A DNA stretch of 45,964 nucleotides from assembly GCF_014377975.1 (NCBI RefSeq), contig NZ_JACMOO010000285.1:1-45964 (forward strand), given 5' to 3'. The notes beneath the pieces were generated by a model. The model did no database searches. It saw only the letters and a program-made list of their open reading frames with translations, and was not told the DNA's origin. Position numbers and translations under genes: made by a program. Position 1 is the stretch's first letter, and the number at the start of each line of letters is the position of its first letter. Shown piece after piece: positions 29,461 through 45,964 of the stretch. The stretch is from Ferruginibacter sp. (GTDB lineage Bacteria > Bacteroidota > Bacteroidia > Chitinophagales > Chitinophagaceae).

Positions 29461-29569
29461 GGTAATTTTTTTAGTAATACGCTTACTGTAAACTATTTGT
29501 TACACAAAAGATGAAAATAATTTAAAACTCCTTTACCTTCGTTCTTCAAAACTGTTCTTATTCATCGTC

Positions 29570-29657
29570 TGAATTTCCGGGGTGCTTCTTTAATAGAGGC
29601 TGAGATAATACCCGTTAACCTGCTCAGGATAATGCCTGCGAAGGGAGCAATAATTCA
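29570..29657 (+). promoter_or_regulatory. TPP riboswitch (THI element)
   Basis: The conserved core is complete: CCGGGGTGC, then GGCTGAGATAATACCC, ACCTG, CAGGATAATGCCTGCG and AAGGGA. The outer stem P1 can be formed by TGAATT (29570-29575) and AATTCA (29652-29657). A 9-bp hairpin with one bulge (29657-29679) follows and may be part of the expression platform; it has no T-tract, so control of translation is as likely as termination. It precedes the TonB-dependent receptor at 29701 on the same strand, so thiamine pyrophosphate should repress that gene. Confidence 0.95.
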
Positions 29658-29700
29658 CATCGGATCGTCATCCGGATGTTCAGCACAAAATTTTATTGAA

Positions 29701-31866
29701 ATGAAAAAACTACTAATGAGTGGTATGCTTTGTGCTATGGCAATTAAAACAATTGCCCAGGAAATTAAAAAATTTAATGACACTTCGTTTATGCAGCCGG
29801 TGGAAGTTACTGCCATCAGGGCAAATGATAAAGCGCCCTTTGCCAAAACAAATCTTACCAAAAAAGACATTGAAAAAAATAATCTTGGCCAGGATTTGCC
29901 GTACCTGCTAAATCAAACGCCTTCCGTAATTATTAATTCGGATGCAGGCAATGGCGTAGGTTATACCGGCATCCGCATTCGTGGTACAGATGCAAGCCGC
30001 ATCAACGTTACGCTCAACGGCATCCCCTATAACGATGCAGAAAGCCAGGGCACTTATTTTGTAGATCTGCCCGACATTGCTTCCTCCGCCAATAGCATTC
30101 AAATACAGCGTGGGGTGGGAACCAGCAGCAACGGCGCGGGATCTTTTGGTGGCAATATCAACTTATCTACCAACGAAATAAATGAAAAACAATACACCGA
30201 ACTAAACAATAGCTACGGTAGTTACAACACCTGGAAAAATACCCTGAAATTTGGCACCGGTATCATCGGAAAACATTTTACCATCGACGGCAGACTGAGC
30301 CAAATCAGTAGTAACGGCTATATTGACCGGGCCAAAACCAACCTGAAATCTTTTTATTTTAGTACTGCCTGGGTAGATGAAAAAAATTCACTACGACTCA
30401 ATATTTTTTCGGGTAAAGAAAAAACCTACCAGGCATGGAACGGTGTTCCGGAAGCATTACTGAAAACAGATCGTACTTATAATATTTCAGGGCAGGAACA
30501 GCCGGGAACACCTTACCCAAATGAAACTGATAATTACACCCAGACTCATTACCAATTATTTTACAATCATCAGTTTAATAAATACCTGAAAGCAAATGCT
30601 GCAATTTTTTTAACCAAAGGAAAAGGCTATTTTGAAGAATACAGGGCAGATCAAAGCTTGTCGGCCTATGGCTTACCTGAATATATTGTTGGCACCGACA
30701 CAACTAAAAATACTGATATGGTAAGGCGCGAATGGCTTGACAATAATTTTTATGGAACCATATTTTCTTTACAATACAAAAAAGAAAATACCCAGCTAAC
30801 TTTTGGGGGAGGGTGGAATAAATACGATGGCAAACATTATGGAGAGATTATCCATGCTGTAGTACAACCTGCTGTTCCATTAAATTATCGCTGGTATGGA
30901 GATTTGCCTGCGCACAAAAAAGATCTTTCTCTTTATACAAAATTTACCCAACAGGTTAGTGAACATTGGCAATTGTTTGCTGATATGCAGGTAAGAACTG
31001 TAAACTATATTATCAATGGTTTCAGGGATAATCCTCTGTTGGTTATTAAAAACAATTATACTTTTTTAAATCCAAAAATCGGGTTTACTTATACCAATAA
31101 AGAATGGCAGGCTTATGCCTCTTATGCCCGGGCGGGCAAAGAACCCAACAGGGATGATTTTGAAGCCGGCAAAACGCAGCAACCCATGCAGGAAGAATTA
31201 AATGATGTGGAACTGGGCGTAGAAAGAAAAAGCAACACCTTTTCTTTTGGGGCCAATCTTTTTTATATGAAATACCACAACCAGCTGGTATTGATTGGAA
31301 ATATTAATGATGTGGGATCTTACACAAGAACCAATATTGACAACAGTTACCGTGCTGGCATTGAGTTGCAGGGAAGAGCAGTGATTACAAATTATTTAAA
31401 TCTTACAGCCAACCTAACCTTAAGCGAAAATAAAATTAAAAATTTTAAAGAACTGATAGATAACTACGACAGTGGCGGAACTGTAACCAACCAATACAAA
31501 AAAACGGATATCTCGTTTTCACCAGCAGTTGTGGCCGGAGGAAGTATTAATATTATACCGGTTAAGAACGGAGAGATTAGTTTGCTGAGTAAATATGTAA
31601 GCCGTCAATACCTGGATAATACCTCTCAAAAAAGCAGGAGCCTGGAGGCTTATTATGTGCAGAATATCAGGTTAACCTATGCCCTGCCAACCATTCATTT
31701 TTTAAAGGCTGTTACATTTATTCTGCAATTAAATAATGTATTTAATAAAAAGTACGAAGCCAATGGTTATACATTCAGTTATATTTCCGGCAAATTAACT
31801 ACTGAAAATTTTTATTTTCCCATGGCCCCGTTTAATTGTATGATGGGGGTAAACATCCGCTTGTAA
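29701..31866 (+). CDS. TonB-dependent outer-membrane receptor, predicted thiamine (or precursor) uptake
   Basis: A 721-residue receptor: signal peptide (MKKLLMSGMLCAMAIKTIAQ), an N-terminal TonB-box-like region, a plug domain (LPYLLNQTPSVIINS, GYTGIRIRGTDASRINVTLNG, IQIQRGVGTSSNGAGSFGG) and a 22-strand barrel ending in Phe-rich strands and LNNVFNKKYEANGYTF, the usual penultimate motif. ATG 29701 follows the riboswitch; the longer frame from 29632 would run through riboswitch sequence. THI-element control of outer-membrane receptors in Bacteroidota is established, and in Bacteroides thetaiotaomicron such a receptor is needed for thiamine uptake. No PnuT-type inner-membrane carrier or thiamine kinase is next to it here. 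No carboxypeptidase-like N-terminal extension is present, so it is not SusC-type. Confidence 0.92.
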   Translation: MKKLLMSGMLCAMAIKTIAQEIKKFNDTSFMQPVEVTAIRANDKAPFAKTNLTKKDIEKNNLGQDLPYLLNQTPSVIINSDAGNGVGYTGIRIRGTDASRINVTLNGIPYNDAESQGTYFVDLPDIASSANSIQIQRGVGTSSNGAGSFGGNINLSTNEINEKQYTELNNSYGSYNTWKNTLKFGTGIIGKHFTIDGRLSQISSNGYIDRAKTNLKSFYFSTAWVDEKNSLRLNIFSGKEKTYQAWNGVPEALLKTDRTYNISGQEQPGTPYPNETDNYTQTHYQLFYNHQFNKYLKANAAIFLTKGKGYFEEYRADQSLSAYGLPEYIVGTDTTKNTDMVRREWLDNNFYGTIFSLQYKKENTQLTFGGGWNKYDGKHYGEIIHAVVQPAVPLNYRWYGDLPAHKKDLSLYTKFTQQVSEHWQLFADMQVRTVNYIINGFRDNPLLVIKNNYTFLNPKIGFTYTNKEWQAYASYARAGKEPNRDDFEAGKTQQPMQEELNDVELGVERKSNTFSFGANLFYMKYHNQLVLIGNINDVGSYTRTNIDNSYRAGIELQGRAVITNYLNLTANLTLSENKIKNFKELIDNYDSGGTVTNQYKKTDISFSPAVVAGGSINIIPVKNGEISLLSKYVSRQYLDNTSQKSRSLEAYYVQNIRLTYALPTIHFLKAVTFILQLNNVFNKKYEANGYTFSYISGKLTTENFYFPMAPFNCMMGVNIRL

Positions 31867-43662: not shown

Positions 43663-44889
43663 ATGATTACGATTGTTTTAAAACCATTTCACCAAAATGC
43701 AGAAGAGCGTATTGGGATTTTTTTTGACTTTAATTTAAGTCTTGACAGGAAAATAAGAAAAATACATTTTGTGCGTTGGAACAATGCCTTTAAATGCTGG
43801 CACTTGCCAGTAAATTCAGAAAGTTACAATGAGTTGTCTGCAGCCGTAGGGGATGCTGCAGCGATTGACAACAGCCGGTTAAGGTTTTATCTTGAAAAAA
43901 GAAATAAAATTCAGGCAGGCAATCAATTTGCCATTGCAAACAAGAGTGATGCCGTGGCAACAAATAATAACTTTTCGATAAAACGAATTAAGCCACCAGC
44001 ATCGGCCAAATCCCTGATATGGCAGGTAAGTAACGAAAATTTAGAAGAGCTGGCAAAAATGGTACAGCTATTAAAATTACAAGGCAAAAGCGATCGTACA
44101 ATCGATACTTACCGCAGTGAATTTCTGCAGTTGCTTCAAACCATACAAAAAAAGCTGGTGAGCAGCCTTACCACGGAAGAGTTAAAACGGTACATGGTGT
44201 ATGCAATGGAAACGAAAGGCATTTCTGAAAATACCGCCAATAGCCGCTTAAGTGCGATTAAATTTTACTTTGAACAGGTATTGGGCGGGGAGAAATTTTT
44301 TTGGGAGATACCAAGAGCAAAGAAACCGAAGCTATTGCCAAAACTTATCAGCGAAGAAAAAATAATTTTGGGGCTGATGAACGTTGCCAATCTGAAACAC
44401 CGCACGCTGTTGTTACTTGCCTATAGTGCGGGTTTAAGAGTAAGCGAAGTAGTTGGGTTAAAAATAGCGGATATCAACAGCGACCGGATGCAAATTTCCA
44501 TTAATGGAGCCAAAGGCAAAAAAGACAGGATGGTAATGCTAAGCGCATCGATACTGGAATTATTGAGGGAATACTATCAATGCTATAAGCCAAAAGAATG
44601 GCTATTTCAGGGACAGCACAAGGGTGAACATTACAGCAGCCGGTCGGCACAGGAAATTTTTAAATCAGCCTATAAAAATCTGGGGTTGCCGGAGCAATGC
44701 AGCTTTCATAGTTTGCGGCACAGTTTCGCCACCCATTTACTGGAAAACGGAACGGATATCAGCTATATTCAAAGACTGCTTGGGCACAGCGATATAAAAA
44801 CTACATTAATATACGCCCAGGTAAGTAACAGAGATGCAGGAAAAATTGAAAGTCCGCTTGATAAGATACTGCGGAAAAAGAAGGGCTAG
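43663..44889 (+). CDS. Tyrosine recombinase with integron-integrase-like C-terminus
   Basis: A 408-residue recombinase, longer than XerC/D (about 300). An extra N-terminal domain (1-115, with RWNNAFKCWHLPV) precedes the SAM-like core-binding domain (about 125-215) and a full catalytic domain: Arg I in AGLRVSEVVGL, Lys in GAKGKKDRMV, H-x-x-R in FHSLRHSFATHL, His in LLGHSDIKTTLIY and Tyr in IYAQV. The end (AGKIESPLDKIL) matches the 'VRSPLD' tail of integron integrases, but the extra patch of IntI between the Lys hairpin and the H-x-x-R box is missing. It is followed by a terminator and a cluster of related inverted repeats, so it may act on sites there. Function (integration, cassette capture or inversion) is unproven. 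Confidence 0.9.
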   Translation: MITIVLKPFHQNAEERIGIFFDFNLSLDRKIRKIHFVRWNNAFKCWHLPVNSESYNELSAAVGDAAAIDNSRLRFYLEKRNKIQAGNQFAIANKSDAVATNNNFSIKRIKPPASAKSLIWQVSNENLEELAKMVQLLKLQGKSDRTIDTYRSEFLQLLQTIQKKLVSSLTTEELKRYMVYAMETKGISENTANSRLSAIKFYFEQVLGGEKFFWEIPRAKKPKLLPKLISEEKIILGLMNVANLKHRTLLLLAYSAGLRVSEVVGLKIADINSDRMQISINGAKGKKDRMVMLSASILELLREYYQCYKPKEWLFQGQHKGEHYSSRSAQEIFKSAYKNLGLPEQCSFHSLRHSFATHLLENGTDISYIQRLLGHSDIKTTLIYAQVSNRDAGKIESPLDKILRKKKG

Positions 44890-44915: not shown

Positions 44916-45083
44916 TATGCGGAAGTTTGCTCAAAACTTGCGTTTTTCCAATTAATCATACATTATTTAATATTTTATACGAAAGTTTAAACTTTCATAT
45001 ATTAATTCCCCGTTTATATATAATTTTAGTAATTAAAAACTTATGCGGTTTTAACATTTTTCAGAAAAATGAACATTCGCATA
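44916..45083. repeat. Cluster of three related inverted repeats downstream of the recombinase
   Basis: Copy 1: TATGCGGAAGTTT (44916-44928) opposed to AAACTTGCG (44934-44942). Copy 2: the perfect palindrome GAAAGTTTAAACTTTC (44981-44996), extending with one mismatch to 44976-45001 (left arm TATACGAAAGTTT). Copy 3: TATGCGG (45042-45048) opposed to CGCATA (45078-45083), with an inner hairpin CATTTTT/AAAAATG (45055-45071). Left arms start 60 and 66 bp apart and share TATRCGRAAGTTT. Such arms are the form of tyrosine-recombinase binding sites, but no core or overlap region is proven. Confidence 0.55.
44920..44947 (+). terminator. Probable terminator of the recombinase gene
   Basis: AAGTTT/AAACTT form a 6-bp stem with loop GCTCA, extended by a CG/CG pair beyond one mismatch, and five T follow directly. 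It starts 31 bp after the stop codon. The same sequence is also copy 1 of the inverted-repeat cluster, so the two readings compete. Confidence 0.5.
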
Positions 45084-45159
45084 TAATTACGTTGGTTGCT
45101 ATTTTAAAGACCCCCACCATTTGACACCATTTTTGACAATTTCAACCATATTAAAAGCA

Positions 45160-45666
45160 ATGGACATCAAAATTATCATAACTGCTATCTTAACTTTTAT
45201 TGCGACGGGAATATTAGCACCATTTAGTAAAGTAATTTTTGAAAAGATATTTTCTGCATATAACCCAGACCCAAAAAAAATAAATTCAGGAATAAAGAAT
45301 ACTCTCCTTTTTGCATTGCGGTATTTAGTGCCAATTGCTAATGTTATATACTTATATATTTCACATAAAGAGGTTGACAAGTTTTTAGTTTTAACGACTG
45401 TTTTTATTTTTTCGGTATTAGTATTAAATATTTCGTTAGACATGTTATTTAAGTTTATGGACAGGTTTTTTATTAATAAAAAGACAGATTTACTTTCTCC
45501 AATAATTTCAATTATTAAAGAATTATTAGATAAGAGTGTAACACATGATAAAGTGCTTATTAAACTAACTGAAGTCCAATATGACCATATAAACATTGCA
45601 AATAAACTCTCCGAGCAAGTTGCATCTATCCCTAAACAGCAAGACCAAAAACAGCAACCAACATGA
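45160..45666 (+). CDS. Orphan small membrane protein
   Basis: A 168-residue protein that I do not recognise. Three hydrophobic segments (about residues 4-24, 47-65 and 74-96: TLLFALRYLVPIANVIYLYI, FLVLTTVFIFSVLVLNISL) are followed by a soluble charged tail (about 110-168) ending KQQDQKQQPT. I use ATG 45160; the frame is open to a TTG at 45121 that adds 13 residues without visible support. The gene is more AT-rich than its surroundings, which suggests recent acquisition. It lies after the recombinase and repeat cluster, the place of a cassette gene. An overlapping minus-strand frame exists but has poor composition. Confidence 0.6.
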   Translation: MDIKIIITAILTFIATGILAPFSKVIFEKIFSAYNPDPKKINSGIKNTLLFALRYLVPIANVIYLYISHKEVDKFLVLTTVFIFSVLVLNISLDMLFKFMDRFFINKKTDLLSPIISIIKELLDKSVTHDKVLIKLTEVQYDHINIANKLSEQVASIPKQQDQKQQPT

Positions 45667-45964
45667 GGTTTTATAATATTGGGGCCTGACCAACAAACAT
45701 CAGCTAAAAGCAAAGCCAGGCATCAGTTTCGGCTTGACCAGCATCTTTAATCTTTAGTACAAACAATGAACTTTTAATTATTAATTTGGCTTCGGTTGCG
45801 GGCAGACGGAAGTTAATATCCCAACATCATAAAGCCCTACCGTTGTACGTCACCCTATTGAACATCCTACACATATACAAGCATCCATGACTTTTGCCGA
45901 CACGACCCAAAGCACAAAGTCAGGCACATTGCAAGGCACACAAAAACGAAACACAAAAGCCAAC
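45667..45964. other. Non-coding region with a short repeat and a T-poor tract
   Basis: No open frame. GGCCTGACCAACA and GGCTTGACCAGCA are imperfect direct repeats near 45682 and 45732. The last 64 bases (45901-45964) contain only three T and are strongly A/C-rich, ending AAAGCCAAC at the window edge. This may be one arm of a long hairpin or a repeat whose other part lies outside the window. Confidence 0.5.

Follow-up and report, generated by a model that had tools for sequence, protein, structure and literature searches.

The DNA analysed here (the window) is the whole of a 45964-base contig (C89) of Ferruginibacter sp. (NZ_JACMOO010000285.1), which belongs to an assembly of metagenome type (437 contigs; completeness 94%, contamination 7%). 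L, G and C numbers below are our handles for loci, genomes and contigs. Near the right end of the window, all on the forward strand, are found the gene of an integron-type tyrosine recombinase (43663..44889, 408 aa), a gap with three inverted repeats, a candidate attI site, one complete gene cassette with an attC site and the beginning of another. We consider it highly probable that this locus is the head of an integron, consisting of an integrase gene, attI, cassette 1 with its attC and the start of cassette 2.

The gap between the recombinase stop (44889) and the first start codon (TTG 45121) measures 231 nt. An earlier reading of the letters alone (the sequence-only reading) had described three related inverted repeats with a shared left arm at 44916-45083, and these are present where it placed them, with starts spaced 60 and 66 nt. 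Repeat 1 (44916..44942) has the arms TATGCGGAAGTTT (44916-44928) and AAAACTTGCG and is followed by a run of five T, at which no terminator was called. Repeat 2 (44976..45001) is a 26-nt near-palindrome that begins with TATACGAAAGTTT (44976-44988); its core GAAAGTTTAAACTTTC (44981-44996) is the perfect 16-bp palindrome that had been described. Repeat 3 (45042..45083) has the arms TATGCGGTTTT (45042-45052) and AACATTCGCATA and contains, as had also been seen, a second hairpin between them (CATTTTTC/GAAAAATG); its right arm doubles as the left half of the attI core. The hairpins are modestly beyond chance (DNA folding z of -1.74, -2.06 and -2.19 against dinucleotide shuffles), and the summed inverted-repeat score up to the GTT is 19 (mean 9.7 and maximum 24 in 20 shuffles). 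The shared arm is far beyond chance: a search of the 5.07-Mb genome, which had been suggested for the arm consensus, finds TATRCGRAAGTTT exactly twice, both times in this gap. The control, the same pattern reversed, has two occurrences genome-wide. Among 28 loci compared, the full arm pair CGAAAGTTT/AAACTTTCG is found in exact or near-exact form in L090, L129, L131 and L139. An imperfect form is seen in L034, L117 and L121; counterparts of repeats 1 and 2 are present in L032 and, by eye, also in L034. In the inverted-repeat scan the row of L081, where a run of N had been counted, was disregarded. Repeats 1 and 2 are candidate accessory integrase sites.

Directly behind repeat 3 lies an integron-type crossover motif, TTCGCATATAATTAC-G|TTGGTTGC, with its G at 45091. 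The attI core and right box (..ATTCGCATATAATTAC-G|TTGGTTGC) extend over 45073..45099, and the crossover would fall between G45091 and T45092. The sequence-only reading had regarded the repeats themselves as possible crossover sites; the predicted crossover lies outside them, but directly behind the right arm of repeat 3. What recurs in relatives is this right arm together with the GTT (consensus TKCGTATATTTAWGA|GTTRGCNGCAAT, 41 loci), so that of the conservation expected for the gap the core is common to relatives and most of the gap is not. The 41 loci were chosen by a motif score (a weight matrix of the 16 nt before the GTT, trained on 12 sites of the genus including that of the window); the agreement before the GTT is therefore partly due to selection, whereas the agreement behind it is not. 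When the DNA behind 31 recombinases was compared (two have almost none), many showed a block resembling CGTATATTTA..GTTRGC, usually 70-330 nt past the stop codon, and then different DNA each time. At a score of at least 3 the motif is found 43-772 nt behind the recombinase in 66 of 142 distinct integrase loci. The site is specific and adjoins the integrase gene, as in integrons (window 45073-45099), and the proposal that the gap holds an attI-like site was essentially right: a cassette lies downstream, the core motif is shared between genera and the genes behind this motif vary. A different pre-crossover block (TATCCAATT-GTTACC) is seen in L199/L232 and L202, from two genera of one other family of the class, and the R boxes of L232 are of another style (GTTGTANNNCA in three of four); these loci are possibly a second attI/attC subtype.

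Cassette 1 (45092..45842, 751 nt) extends from TTGGTTGC to the G of the next GTT. Its gene, the open reading frame (ORF) previously called an 'orphan' (45160..45666), encodes 168 aa from the ATG or 181 aa from the TTG at 45121, and the protein has no Pfam match and no NCBIfam match over the cut-off. Integron cassettes start with TTRRRY.. and contain the reverse complement of this start (R'') near their end; in the excised circle R'' and R' pair. The R'' box of cassette 1, GCAACCAAC (45654..45662), is the exact complement of the attI right box GTTGGTTGC, and with the next base the match is 10 nt long, which is reached by chance in 0.31% of 20000 Markov sequences. The stop of the cassette gene lies directly behind this box. 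Fold, covariation and a covariance model point to an attC of the long class at 45654..45850, an imperfect palindrome of 197 nt. Its bottom strand is predicted to fold with -22.6 kcal/mol in the circular form, with R'' and R' paired, and with -16.8 in the array form; the covariance model gives it 144.6 bits, yet the sequence is among the model's own. A second crossover, G45842|T45843 (motif GTTGTACGTCA), opens cassette 2, of which the first 122 nt are present (45842..45964) before the contig end cuts it. No convincing partner for its continuation was found among the loci compared in the own genome. The covariance model has 23 matches in this genome at E <= 0.01, that of the window included; among the 13 others examined, C68 shows a clean pair of 10 nt and C285 one of 8 nt (within a 1.5-kb flank). 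Contig C345 ends at CGTTAG, two bases beyond its GTT. Neither the window nor any of five array loci has a match to an attC-like family of Rfam.

The complement rule was tested in relatives on held-out loci (score of at least 6, at least 1 kb behind the site), the complement being sought within 5 kb. A complement of at least 9 nt accompanies the motif-chosen GTT in 20 of 26 cases, against 16 of 340 for the remaining GTTs of these loci (Fisher 2.8e-18); at 10 nt or more the numbers are 13 of 26 and 2 of 340 (Fisher 3.7e-15). A strict detector, which asks for an attC-like stem as well as a complement of 9 nt or more and allows a start anywhere in the first 900 nt, was applied to the 98 integrases followed by 1 kb or more of DNA. 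It finds at least one, two and three cassettes behind 44, 19 and 14 of them; in 119 upstream control pieces the numbers are 11, 1 and 0. In an earlier control at least one cassette was seen in 2 of 18 window pieces (never more than one), 4 of 58 upstream pieces (one with two) and 0 of 3 reversed loci. Chains with a weak last link comprise 14 links in G016, 11 in G026, six in Hydrotalea sandarakina (L092), six in L112 and five in Pinibacter soli (L110); all 13 links of the chain in G207, which lies on a 2.0-Mb contig, are strict. Repeats of about 200 nt lie between genes on long contigs of G016 and G044; the chain detector reports two cassettes in G044, though self-comparison shows more repeats. 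G026 contains a 1577-nt stretch twice at 100%, identical from the GTT to just beyond the next GTT. The statistics of 78 cassettes from 17 chosen arrays (one duplicate counted twice, cassettes above 3 kb left out) give a median length of 917 nt and a median ORF of 206 aa, and the longest ORF is forward in 75, reverse in two and absent in one. The 77 attC sites fall mostly into two size classes, with 37 at about 195-200 nt and 27 at about 130-135 nt, and in 41 long-class sites 10 of 11 stem pairs have changes on both sides. As in integrons, R'' complements the site's own R', the stem forms and the crossover is G|TT; arrays of one orientation, mostly with one ORF per cassette, are present in the relatives.

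The contents of some cassettes can be described. In the array of G026, an environmental congener, the cassette gene L061:8182-8994 (-) matches Pfam Transpeptidase (3.9e-39) and is class D beta-lactamase-like by eye. A DUF805 RNA (Rfam RF03081, 79.2 bits; L061:5092-5159 (-)) lies between a crossover and the start of the cassette gene L061:4470-5078; this cassette carries its own cis-regulatory element. A 2.8-kb cassette of the same array contains a reverse-oriented, by eye transposase-like gene (L061:6019-7065 (+)). A PD-Lambda-2_B-like helix-turn-helix protein (cassette L061:14496-14849 (-)) and a D12 adenine methyltransferase (cassette L092:13662-14648 (+)) match models of the defence library. 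PADLOC matched three of 10 chosen cassette proteins, one of them very weakly, so a general defence role is not claimed.

The DNA behind attI shows signs of movement. In the pairs L041/L044, L117/L121, L138/L143 and L032/L034 the integrases are 86-92% identical and the identity over the 16 nt before the GTT is 0.88-0.94; behind the GTT (+10 to +60) it is 0.30 and 0.16 in the two pairs that were measurable. Variable cassettes behind a constant attI are seen in the first three pairs, and L032/L034 can be followed up to the GTT only. Over 309 pairs with 60-99.5% integrase identity the mean is 0.61 before the GTT, partly by selection since the sites were picked by motif, and 0.31 behind it. The sequence-only reading had made its case depend on downstream genes that vary, and those behind the core do so between close relatives. 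In six of 66 loci (L032, L077, L131, L103, L217 and L184) the contig ends at the attI GTT or at most three bases past it, as would be seen if the cells of a population diverge from this base onwards. The contig end is less than 1 kb behind the recombinase in 26 of 80 public loci and less than 1 kb before it in 7 of 80 (sign test p = 0.0013). Contigs can also break for other reasons; what is telling is the precise coincidence with the GTT.

The recombinase contains about 120 N-terminal residues, a SAM-like core-binding domain (from about residue 131; PF13495) and the phage-integrase catalytic domain (PF00589), and ends in ..SPLDKILRKKKG, the SPLD tail. The residues R..K..H..R..H..Y of tyrosine recombinases are present as RKHRHY in the window protein, which set the alignment columns, and are intact in most family rows (20 of 21 and 83 of 87) and in 12 of 12 further rows. 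With the IntI model TIGR02249 the protein scores 171.7 bits (E 2.4e-50) and does not reach the cut-off of 265; the best E among 56 family members is 5.3e-59, about 200 bits by extrapolation. The XerC, XerD and XerA models give 165.8, 162.4 and 193.1 bits, and none of their cut-offs (335, 330 and 220) is reached. Solved structures matched are the XerA-type 4a8e (1.5e-36), IntI4 2a3v (2e-27) and XerD. By alignment columns, each of the 120 family and related proteins has 58-62 residues between the K-loop and box II. The 14 IntI of the same phylum all have 100, and seven Xer proteins have 61-66; judged from these alignments, the IntI-specific insertion is absent. In the N-terminal domain W39 and W46 are invariant. 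This domain is weakly like DUF5710 (in 14 of 31 members, with a best E of 2.1e-5, and in 5 of 56 full proteins), matches HARP in one of 31 members (E 0.11) and has no relative among solved structures (best E 1.4).

In the tree the IntI proteins (14 rows) form one clade (100/100) and the Xer proteins another. The window protein belongs to a different starred set (24 rows, 99/95) and is not inside the IntI clade. The family, further insertion-less Bacteroidota recombinases and IntI group together, apart from Xer (96/95); the chosen family is not one clade (three changes) and one Xer row is very long. Support for the position of IntI among the insertion-less proteins is moderate (94/95 and 84/74). 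Being below the TIGR02249 cut-off, without the insertion and outside the IntI clade, the integrase lies outside IntI as usually defined. Cassettes likewise follow several of the further recombinases (L239, L232, L234).

Among 198 genomes of the class Bacteroidia, one has an IntI over the cut-off and 97 have relatives of the integrase (E <= 1e-70); the own genome has no canonical IntI at E <= 1e-70. In 296 genomes of the phylum IntI is found in 84 and integrase relatives in 90, and all but one of the IntI carriers are outside the class. From 1 of 198 in the class against 84 of 296 in the GTDB phylum, the IntI gap is a matter of class. The relatives are not all integron integrases, as the set includes proteins without a recognisable array. 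Relatives of the integrase are common in the class and seem to have been overlooked as integrons. Cultured carriers are Hydrotalea, Pinibacter, Lacibacter and Cnuella. Among canonical IntI loci of the same phylum, those of the reverse-oriented type (L156, L158-L161, L163, L165) have attI-like sites 149-166 nt behind the 3' end, while in L169, L170, L172, L175 and L204 the sites are on the 5' side; some of these matches are of 7 nt only.

All 59 genomes of the genus match the recombinase at E <= 0.001, Xer proteins of about 30% identity included, and full-length relatives (identity 41-52%) are found in 19 congeners. The own genome contains a second full-length integrase of the same lineage (G000:C51:29-1240 (-), L070; 43-45% identical), whose contig stops 16 nt after the integrase stop codon. 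The public loci are the best 80 of at least 548 relatives (at least 593 stretches matched), obtained with the family-specific part A2 as query; a search of public genome contigs with the single protein as query gave no match. Viral contigs contain two weak relatives only, which leaves a phage origin without support. On plasmids, 362 records match at E <= 1e-30, of which two reach 80% query coverage (the best is from Chryseobacterium, 36%). Elsewhere in the window, a thiamine pyrophosphate riboswitch (29568-29663, 66.8 bits) is found at the 5' end of a 744-aa ORF (29632-31866).

Several observations weigh against an integron run by this enzyme. The literature holds the insertion that it lacks to be necessary (accessible text of PMC9668308 and PMC8138268). 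The window contains one complete cassette only, and most of the 13 other attC matches examined in the own genome have poor R'' boxes. The motif is present in no more than the 66 of 142 integrases given above. Nor does it capture all of the family: where its score is below 4, 11 of 43 loci have a complement of 9 nt or more for the GTT that was chosen. No strict cassette is found in 54 of the 98 relatives, including loci of Chryseobacterium and Parapedobacter with more than 9 kb downstream; the chain detector misses some attCs (4.4-kb 'cassettes'), and the array of G207 lies behind a recombinase frame of just 246 aa, apparently truncated. The missing insertion and the partly degenerate attCs of the own genome would also suit real attC arrays, similar to clusters without an integrase (CALIN-like), that are moved by a canonical IntI in trans while the local Xer-like recombinase does something else, and the phylum has many carriers of canonical IntI in its other classes. 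We regard this as improbable, given the near absence of canonical IntI from the class and its absence from the own genome at E <= 1e-70, the attI motif behind the local recombinase with the first cassette directly behind it in many loci, and the arrays that start at this recombinase in several genera.

The repeats could instead be regulatory, repeat 1 with its TTTTT as a terminator of the recombinase gene and TATAAT (45082-45087, in the attI core) as part of a promoter of the next gene, where two promoter-like matches of 10/12 end at 45087. The scan, however, gives no terminators and eight promoter-like sites against a shuffled mean of 5.9, and regulation leaves the complement rule, the break at the GTT and the arrays unexplained; we think it unlikely as the explanation, and a regulatory role may exist in addition to the integron role. 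In known integrons the cassettes are driven by a promoter near attI. Chance hairpins in AT-rich DNA beside a recombinase would fit folding z values of only about -2 and the rarity of counterparts of repeats 1 and 2, but the arm pattern, twice in the genome and both times here, and repeat 3, whose right arm belongs to the shared core, make this very improbable overall, and for repeat 3 it is contradicted. The XerA-type 4a8e, IntI4 and XerD as best structural matches, together with XerC, XerD and invertase models that match below cut-off, recall a Xer/dif-like or invertible-promoter system in which the repeats serve dimer resolution or DNA inversion. This we give hardly any credence: the genome has XerC/XerD-like genes of its own in the separate clade (96/95), no copy of the arm pattern is present on the reverse strand of the genome, and the cassettes lie behind the recombinase, not before it, and are chained in relatives.

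The system is an integron in every feature tested, with an integrase that is not IntI as defined. Its attI, attC and cassettes are as firm as sequence can make them, through the boundaries, the complement rule, the arrays in relatives, the variable cassettes and one duplicated cassette; the enzymatic activity of the insertion-less integrase and its choice of strand are presumed. The integrase gene has its 3' end on the side of the array, so attI follows that end. The integrase would bind attI as double-stranded DNA at its core (left half TTCGCATATAATTAC and right box GTTGGTTGC) and attC as a folded single bottom strand, and cut next to the G of the GTT, whereby a circular cassette would be inserted at attI or excised from the array. 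We lean slightly towards the view that integron recombination does not need the IntI-specific domain and that a large insertion-less lineage of Bacteroidota, with a DUF5710-like N-terminal domain, runs the integrons of Bacteroidia; canonical IntI, which in the tree is among insertion-less integron-type recombinases and apart from Xer, would possibly be a later offshoot.

Surveys define integrons by the IntI-specific domain. In the accessible text of PMC9668308 this domain is the defining feature; in that of PMC8138268 the insertion is not fully conserved in an integron-like subgroup, yet is called essential. Bacteroidota are among the phyla listed with integrons in the accessible part of PMC8618304, as is the Bacteroidetes/Chlorobi group in that of PMC2426708, and the accessible part of PMC8352920, with attC models of 11 taxa, contains no word starting with 'Bacteroid'. 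A search of the open-access literature, without preprints and with few subscription journals, turned up no description of the lineage as integron integrases. If the lineage works as proposed, the class Bacteroidia would be another group in which integrons are common, part of the attC clusters classed as 'integrase-less' may be served by an enzyme that was overlooked, an insertion regarded as essential would be dispensable, and the origin of IntI could be tested with living relatives.

Compared with known systems, the catalytic domain, the short spacing from the K-loop to box II (61-66 in Xer) and the best PDB match 4a8e are shared with XerA, XerC and XerD; the separate clade, attI, arrays, N-terminal domain and SPLD tail are different. 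The insertion-less members of the integron-like tyrosine recombinase subgroup are, in the accessible text of PMC8138268, not tied to attI, attC or arrays. Archaeal integrons (accessible text of PMC9668308) were likewise discovered from metagenome-assembled genomes in a group thought to be integron-free and have attI immediately downstream of intI, but their IntIs retain the IntI-specific domain. The reverse-orientation integrons of Spirochaetota type, mentioned in the same accessible text, share the integrase gene that points towards the cassettes and the attI behind its 3' end, an orientation also found at some canonical IntI loci of the phylum (e.g. L156, L160); their integrases, unlike ours, are canonical IntIs. 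With canonical IntI integrons, both the mobile and the sedentary chromosomal ones, the locus and its relatives share the integrase beside attI, the GTTRRRY-type crossover, cassettes with mostly one forward ORF, attC hairpins with an R'' that complements the cassette's own start, and variable arrays. They differ in the integrase, which is without the IntI insertion, scores below the cut-off and has an extra N-terminal domain, and in the attC sites, which are mostly of two size classes, near 195-200 and 130-135 nt.
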